A stretch of 64,000 nucleotides of DNA from the NCBI RefSeq assembly GCF_900142535.1, contig NZ_FRBE01000006.1:1-64000 (forward strand), read 5' to 3'. The translations under genes were made by a program, and so were the position numbers. The notes beneath the pieces are model-generated. The model was not told where the DNA came from, did not search any database, and saw only the letters and a program-made list of their open reading frames with translations. Source of the stretch: Fibrobacter sp. UWEL (GTDB taxonomy: Bacteria; Fibrobacterota; Fibrobacteria; Fibrobacterales; Fibrobacteraceae). Shown here one piece after another: positions 17,581-18,437 of the stretch. The stretch's first letter is position 1; the number at the start of each line of letters is the position of its first letter.

Positions 17581-18437
17581 TGAGCGATAAAGATTGCAGC
17601 CAAAGCTACAATCCCAAAGCCGTCACATCTAACCAGACGGACATTTATAAAAATCTTGAACAGGTGGTTCGCAAGTATGCAGCCACCCGTTTTTTACGCC
17701 CGGTAGCAGACCATACCCGCGAGGCTTTTGAGTCCGCAAGACAGTTCGTCCAGAATTTTTATGAGACCACCGGCTCAATTCCAGTTGTCATCCCCGGCTC
17801 GACCGGGGATCTTACAGATCCAATCGCGAAGGGAGCGTTTCCCGTTATTCTAGACTCCGGTTGCGGCACGGGAGAAAGCACCCTCCATCTGGCCCGCAGG
17901 TTTCCAGGCGTACCCGTCATCGGGATCGACAAGTCCGCCGTCCGTCTGAATAAGGCGGGAAACGAACATCAGCTAGAAAATGTTTCACCGCTAGATTCTC
18001 GCCTTCGCGAGAATGACAAAGAGAATCTCGCGGTACCCGCCAATGCATTCTGGGTCCGCGGAGAACTTCTGGATTTCTGGCGCTTGGCGCTGGACGAAGT
18101 ACAGGCTGGCCGCTGGACCATCCCGCATCACGCAGTCTTTTACCCCAATCCTTGGCCTAAGGAAAGTGAAGCCACCCGCAGGTTCCACCTCCATCCCATT
18201 TTTTCCACCATGATGGCCTTGGGACACGTCACGGAGTTACGTACCAACTGGGAAATCTACGCCAGGGAATTTGCAGAAGCCGCCCGCATCCTGGCAGACA
18301 GCAACGCCTCGGCCGACTCACCAATCTTGCCCACCATCACTTGCGAAGCCTTCCAGCCGATCCATCCGGAAACCGCCTTCGAGCGCAAATACAAAGAAGC
18401 CCGCCAACAGTTGTGGCGGGTCCTCGTCCAAAAGTAA
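17580..18437 (+). CDS. trmB: TrmB-like tRNA (guanine-N7) methyltransferase with two repeat-derived insertions
   Basis: The start is the ATG of a TAATG overlap at 17580, giving 285 residues. The SAM-binding motif is LDSGCGTGESTLHLARRFPG followed by VIGIDKSAVRLNKA, and the TrmB signature appears as YPNPWPKESEATRRFHLHP (the family has FPDPWPK..HxKRR). The family makes m7G46 in tRNA. The protein is longer than typical TrmB (about 200-240). Two of the extra pieces are translated copies of dispersed palindromic repeats: VVIPGSTGDL, encoded from 17784, and LDSRLRENDKENLA, encoded from about 17991. Both keep the frame and fall just before the SAM motif and just after the second strand, at plausible loop positions. 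Activity and tRNA target are inferred. Confidence 0.82.
   Translation: MSDKDCSQSYNPKAVTSNQTDIYKNLEQVVRKYAATRFLRPVADHTREAFESARQFVQNFYETTGSIPVVIPGSTGDLTDPIAKGAFPVILDSGCGTGESTLHLARRFPGVPVIGIDKSAVRLNKAGNEHQLENVSPLDSRLRENDKENLAVPANAFWVRGELLDFWRLALDEVQAGRWTIPHHAVFYPNPWPKESEATRRFHLHPIFSTMMALGHVTELRTNWEIYAREFAEAARILADSNASADSPILPTITCEAFQPIHPETAFERKYKEARQQLWRVLVQK
17786..17811 (+). repeat. Palindromic repeat inside the TrmB-like gene, unit 1
   Basis: TGTCATCCCCGGCTCGACCG continues to GGGGATC and forms the perfect arms ATCCCCGG/CCGGGGAT around CTCGA. It begins like the intergenic GTCATCC repeats. It is read in frame as VIPGSTGD. Confidence 0.75.
17991..18034 (+). repeat. Palindromic repeat inside the TrmB-like gene, unit 2
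   Basis: GATTCTCGCCTTCGCGAGAA forms a hairpin (ATTCTCG/CGAGAAT). It is followed by TGACAAAGAGAATCTCGCGG, which repeats the arm. It is read in frame as DSRLRENDKENLA, a peptide typical of translated dispersed repeats of this kind. Confidence 0.75.

Follow-up and report, generated by a model that had tools for sequence, protein, structure and literature searches.

To our knowledge, palindromes within genes are best known from Rickettsia, and their spread there is unexplained. The Rickettsia palindromic elements (RPE) lie in frame and add residues to many unrelated proteins, in some genes twice. RPE-4 and RPE-6, like dRS3 of Neisseria, are included in the CGTC-tagged REPs, a class defined by its tag, stem and loop (Di Nocera et al. 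2013, PMC3733652). Intragenic copies of CGTC REPs have been described, the five phyla listed do not include the Fibrobacterota, and no dedicated transposase is known for the class (PMC3733652). GTAG REPs are moved by RAYT-type (Y1/IS200-like) transposases. In this REP/RAYT (TnpA-REP) system, a palindrome family is paired with a small gene that is flanked by its copies.

We found that a TrmB-like methyltransferase gene of Fibrobacter sp. UWEL carries two repeats of the CGTC kind. The gene lies in a 64-kb stretch of DNA (the window) from the draft genome of this strain (G000; 3.53 Mb, 62 contigs). An earlier note on the window had described two dispersed hairpin repeats in frame inside the gene, running from 17786 to 18034, and our analysis bore out both the description and the positions. 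Repeat 1 (type 1) has the layout TGTC-ATCCCCGG-CTCGA-CCGGGGAT-CTTAC, with a perfect 8-bp stem at 17790-17810 and a 5-nt loop; its tail is degenerate, CTTAC instead of CTAGC. Repeat 2 (type 2) lies on the minus strand and has the layout GCTAG-ATTCTCGC-CTTC-GCGAGAAT-GACA, with a perfect 8-bp stem at 17995-18014, a 4-nt loop and an intact CTAGC tail. The last part of the span is a partial inverted copy of the type-2 arm (Table 1). The type-1 and type-2 patterns each occur once in the window. We consider it highly probable that the two hairpins are mobile CGTC-class palindromic repeats that entered two flexible linkers of the methyltransferase in frame, and that other species filled the same linkers independently.

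Table 1. Positions of the gene, its linkers and repeats, and of the repeats around one nuclease gene elsewhere in the genome
Feature	Position	Strand	Remarks
TrmB-like SAM-dependent methyltransferase gene, 285 aa	17580..18437	+	start ATG and upstream stop codon overlap (TAATG)
Variable linker V1, between N-terminal helix and first SAM-core strand	17718..17846 (approximate)	+	7/22 translated palindromes in 56 orthologues; pLDDT 56 at residues 71-80
Type-1 palindromic repeat in V1, reads VVIPGSTGDLT	17786..17815	+	29 genomic copies (control 0); borders from aligned copies; absent in orthologues
Variable linker V2, between second and third SAM-core strands	17952..18041 (approximate)	+	1/22 palindromes (the window's own); pLDDT 70 and 62 at residues 131-150
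Type-2 palindromic repeat in V2, reads PLDSRLRENDK on the opposite strand	17990..18018	-	13 genomic copies (control 0); borders from alignment; absent in orthologues
Partial inverted copy of type-2 arm (GAGAATCTCGCGGT), encodes KENLA	18019..18034	.	degenerate; makes a longer 14-bp inverted repeat, arms 93% complementary
Variable linker V3, near C terminus	18260..18373 (approximate)	+	no repeat in window gene; commonest site elsewhere, 14/22 palindromes
Type-1 repeats around nuclease gene L235	C1:58581-58604 and C1:58956-58979	+ and -	genomic pattern search

The repeats are discrete elements dispersed through the genome. Pattern searches of the 3.53 Mb, allowing at most three mismatches, gave 29 type-1 and 13 type-2 matches; the backwards control gave 0 for both. 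The two hairpins of the methyltransferase gene are exact-stem members of these families. Aligned with their flanks, the 42 copies are conserved from YGTC to CTAGC and not outside. Because identity ends so sharply, these are separate units, 30 bp long for type 1 and 29 bp for type 2, with a common consensus of YGTC, an 8-bp stem, a loop of 4-5 nt and CTAGC. As the earlier note had supposed, the repeats are otherwise mostly intergenic (24/42). Twelve copies are inside coding genes, in frame and with coding signal to either side; 4 others are at C-terminal ends and 2 at gene ends. In the sequence sampled from this genome, coding DNA makes up approximately 92%. That only 12/42 copies lie within genes therefore suggests that most insertions into genes were removed and that the survivors sit in permissive loops. 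Fibrobacter genomes contain related palindromes as well: ATTGCGAG-family palindromes were found in 32/41 genomes and CCCG-family palindromes in 39/41 (control 0 for each). Many one-mismatch, long-loop palindrome matches in the coding survey are due to chance and were left out of the repeat counts.

Measured against the definition of the CGTC REPs, the Fibrobacter elements agree in most respects. An unpaired YGTC end (CGTC or TGTC) is conserved in the 42 copies. The 8-bp stems (ATCCCCGG, ATTCTCGC) start with AT, and the loops are 5 and 4 nt, within the 8-9 bp and 4-5 nt of the class. The copies are dispersed; most lie between genes, and a minority lie in frame within them. However, the Fibrobacter tail is CTAGC and not CCA, the usual tail of the class, and the Fibrobacter dimers are joined tail to tail. 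Since tag, stem, loop and dispersion fit and the tail does not, we regard the element as a variant that behaves as a CGTC REP does, not as a plain member. The Fibrobacter elements are thus a variant of the known CGTC REP/RPE-like class, in a phylum outside the published survey (PMC3733652). The earlier note had likened the case to Rickettsia, and the likeness is close: RPE-4 and RPE-6 are CGTC-tagged REPs with the same layout of tag, stem and loop. In Fibrobacter, too, palindromes lie in frame in real genes and are absent from the orthologues (the TrmB-like gene, TrpCF and an aminotransferase). Rickettsia is intracellular and has a reduced genome, whereas this Fibrobacter lives in the gut and has a genome of 3.5 Mb. 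The Fibrobacter units are single and short, about 10 codons, and different families fill the same linker in different species.

We examined the host protein. It contains a Methyltransf_4 domain (Pfam, E 2.6e-10), and its AlphaFold model has a pLDDT of 85.5 (input alignment of 31 sequences). The top structural matches to the model are TrmB chains (Z 13.9, with 183 residues superposed at an rmsd of 3.2), and Foldseek likewise pointed to TrmB. The product is thus predicted to have a TrmB-type Rossmann methyltransferase fold. Its score on TIGR00091, the TrmB equivalog family, is 28.4 bits, below the cut-off of 112.65, whereas a second locus of the genome (G000:C1:47398-47946) scores 114.5 bits, above it. 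These scores rule out the gene as the main TrmB of the genome and indicate that its product is a second TrmB-like protein. The protein shares its fold and SAM motif with TrmB, the tRNA (guanine46-N7)-methyltransferase, and differs in falling below the family cut-off and in having three variable linkers. The name TrmB and the description as a tRNA-modifying enzyme, both used in the earlier note, are therefore not supported. Orthologues are present in most of the Fibrobacter genomes searched; we collected 63 named loci, nearly all from Fibrobacter.

The orthologues place the repeats in variable parts of the protein. An alignment of 30 of them consists of a conserved core interrupted by V1, before the SAM motif VILDSGCGTGES, by V2, and by V3, before a C-terminal ETAFERKY block. 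The two repeats of the window gene flank the SAM-binding core, as had been noted, with V1 before the SAM motif and V2 between the second and third strands. The residues they encode are absent from all aligned orthologues, and we found no orthologue with the same residues and no palindrome. Mapped on the AlphaFold model, both inserts fall in loops of low confidence, whereas the rest of the fold is modelled confidently (Table 1). Together the repeats encode approximately 20 of the 285 residues. They were said to explain much of the extra length of the protein; they account for only part of it, as undecorated relatives, including close ones and G009, also have long linkers.

The window copies of type 1 and type 2 point outward, as in true dimers of the two types elsewhere in the genome (C4:182477-182526, C48:1319-1375 and C1:41586-41642). 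A single dimer split around the core was considered and set aside: orthologues with neither repeat keep the same core between the two sites, so two separate insertions are simpler. No insertion event for the two window repeats was seen between near-identical strains, and the closest undecorated orthologues differ by approximately 30% in protein sequence.

We found that the same linkers are decorated in other species. Palindromes are present in 21/56 orthologues, and all 22 palindromes lie in V1, V2 or V3, which make up 31% of the length, with 0 in the core. As the gene was picked because it is decorated here, the fair count is 20/55. Many of the orthologues were assembled from metagenomes, a process in which repeats may be joined wrongly. 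With the same detector, 8/591 random genes matched, some probably by chance (the sample was the genes in 600 kb drawn from three genomes). V1 palindromes of other species read CHCEKRSDEAI, VIPASEPGS, DPPSEDD and DPGTESGMT; those in V3 include IPDQARND, IPNQVRDD, IPGQAGDD, DPCLCGDD, DSRSRAGMT and DCFPSSRVAMT. On a tree built from the core with the linkers left out, the palindrome labels change at least 6, 1 and 11 times for V1, V2 and V3 (approximately 18 in total). Even where species are approximately 90% identical in this gene, the content of V3 differs: a type-1 palindrome in one (L099) and an unrelated palindrome in others (L104, L110 and L120). In L100 and L101 the insertion is nested: the V3 palindrome of L099 is present with 24 additional nucleotides, a second repeat element, in its loop and the frame kept (L099 and L100 are 92% identical). 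Because both the repeat family and the linker differ among species, insertion must have recurred. These comparisons mark the linkers as hot spots for palindromic repeats, probably filled independently in different species. The earlier note had thought two insertions unusual for such an enzyme; given these hot spots, the tolerance of this gene is nothing unusual. In one further orthologue (L109), V1 and V3 are unusually long and apparently consist of piled-up degenerate repeats.

Could the hairpins instead have been selected in place as RNA structures, acting in pausing, attenuation or mRNA stability within linkers that were already long? Both fold stably (z = -2.28 and -2.94, the latter for the longer hairpin extended through 18019-18034), and the long linkers of undecorated relatives such as G009 would fit. 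However, both match dispersed elements exactly over their full length, and unrelated palindromes fill the linkers of the orthologues. An Rfam search of the hairpins gave no family match, and a structured RNA family was rejected as their identity on that ground. This explanation is already disfavoured, and we regard it as very improbable.

Wrong joining of repeats into the gene during assembly is a still more remote explanation, in our estimate extremely improbable. The draft genome is split into 62 contigs and short repeats are known to produce misjoins, but the reading frame is open across the whole gene, with coding score on both sides of each repeat. In addition, the core between the repeats is conserved and collinear with the orthologues, and independently assembled genomes of other species carry inserts of this kind in the same linkers. 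Insertion thus remains our preferred reading for the window gene.

Other genes are decorated in the same way. Repeat-bearing genes of this genome include those for TrpCF, a class I aminotransferase, an ATP-grasp enzyme, BioW, a DEAD helicase and a lipid A acyltransferase-like protein. In TrpCF (L193, G000:C48:67-1737), a tail-to-tail dimer of type 2 and type 1 (CHPREGEDLAARSPVEPGMT) lies in the PRAI half. The TrpCF orthologues are without this insert, and some have CHCEKQSDEAI or LSFPRRRES at other places. The aminotransferase (L207, G000:C1:40799-42205) likewise has a dimer insert (CHPREGEDLDARFPVKPGMT), with a ATTGCGAG repeat just upstream; its orthologues do not have the insert, some have other palindromes, and one (L215) has three translated ATTGCGAG-type repeats. 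BioW (6-carboxyhexanoate-CoA ligase; L034, G000:C7:73600-73625) contains a translated type-2 repeat that reads CHPREGENL. Two serine-rich proteins (L020, G000:C12:33500; and G000 C2:96229-97981) have repeats within a poly-serine linker (VIPDPDRGS, EIPGQAGND).

What moves the repeats? RAYT-type transposases, which move the GTAG REPs, are a very improbable answer. Y1_Tnp genes are present in some Fibrobacter genomes, but a search for PF01797 gave no match in this genome, with its 42 or more repeat copies, and none in most of the 24 other genomes of the genus that were searched. We therefore rejected a Y1_Tnp transposase as the mover here.

We found that the repeats are associated with small GIY-YIG nuclease genes. 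A gene for a 100-aa GIY-YIG nuclease (L235, G000:C1:58672-58893) has a type-1 repeat on each side, with tags outward and CTAGC tails (Table 1). To a generic palindrome detector, both 220-bp flanks were positive for 16/58 small GIY-YIG genes, compared with 0/590 random genes, 0/9 conserved GIY-YIG genes and 0/3 uvrC genes. With eight named palindrome families, the same family was on both flanks of 34/51 small GIY-YIG genes, compared with 2/590 random genes and 0/19 genes of other GIY-YIG classes. The eight families were defined after the flanks had been seen, a source of bias against which we set the generic detector and the random-gene control. On the nuclease tree, the palindrome family changes 8 times for the 8 families, whereas 500 shuffles gave 31.7 changes on average and never fewer than 25. 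One nuclease subfamily (L235, L255, L257, L263 and L265) has flanks with type-1-like or type-2-like repeats. Thus, each repeat family pairs with its own subfamily of small GIY-YIG nuclease genes. As in the REP/RAYT system, a palindrome family goes with a small gene flanked by its copies; the partner in Fibrobacter is a GIY-YIG nuclease and not a tyrosine transposase. For CGTC REPs, the survey found no dedicated enzyme (PMC3733652), whereas we propose a cognate nuclease gene in Fibrobacter. A literature search that reached few subscription papers returned nothing on Fibrobacter palindromes or on GIY-YIG proteins with REPs.

The pairing extends in part to the linkers. In several genomes, namely G000, G025 (ATTGCGAG), G027 (CCTCCG) and G024 (CCGG), the linker repeat matches one found beside a GIY-YIG gene of that genome; in others it does not. 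No matching GIY-YIG gene was found in their own genomes for the V3 element of G029 or for that of the group G002, G022, G028 and G034.

These results make the small GIY-YIG nuclease a candidate for what spreads or cuts the repeats. We propose, with close to even confidence, that these nucleases are the missing partners of the CGTC-type REPs, each subfamily recognizing and spreading its own palindrome family and so repeatedly rewriting the flexible linkers of Fibrobacter enzymes. A nuclease would nick the tagged hairpin when it is single-stranded, and repair or copying would then place a new repeat unit elsewhere; that is, copies may move by copying or recombination begun by the nuclease at the hairpin. 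Insertions in protein cores would be lost, and those in loops would persist and drift. Several reading frames cross stem and loop without meeting a stop codon, and the linkers accept extra residues, so carriers would have survived. The decorated protein is probably made, with inserts that are close to neutral.

However, the GIY-YIG genes might be tolerant or recombination-prone landing sites, or the nuclease might police DNA uptake at the repeats rather than spread them. Ssn proteins are GIY-YIG single-strand nucleases of Neisseria; they cleave a genomic repeat and influence transformation. They resemble the Fibrobacter case in being small GIY-YIG proteins, each with a repeat of its own in the genome that apparently belongs to the dRS3 class; the role described for them is in transformation. 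Policing would fit that precedent, and some linker repeats are without a cognate nuclease gene in their genome. Repeat families and nuclease subfamilies correspond almost one to one, which speaks against mere landing sites and is compatible with both spreading and policing; conserved GIY-YIG genes and UvrC are also without such flanks. We think this alternative quite possible, if somewhat short of an even chance.

The association of repeat families with nuclease subfamilies bears on the CGTC-type REPs, which have been reported without a dedicated enzyme: the GIY-YIG pairing names a concrete candidate. Dozens of Fibrobacter species with the same linker differently filled make it possible to test what moves the repeats and how non-coding DNA becomes protein.
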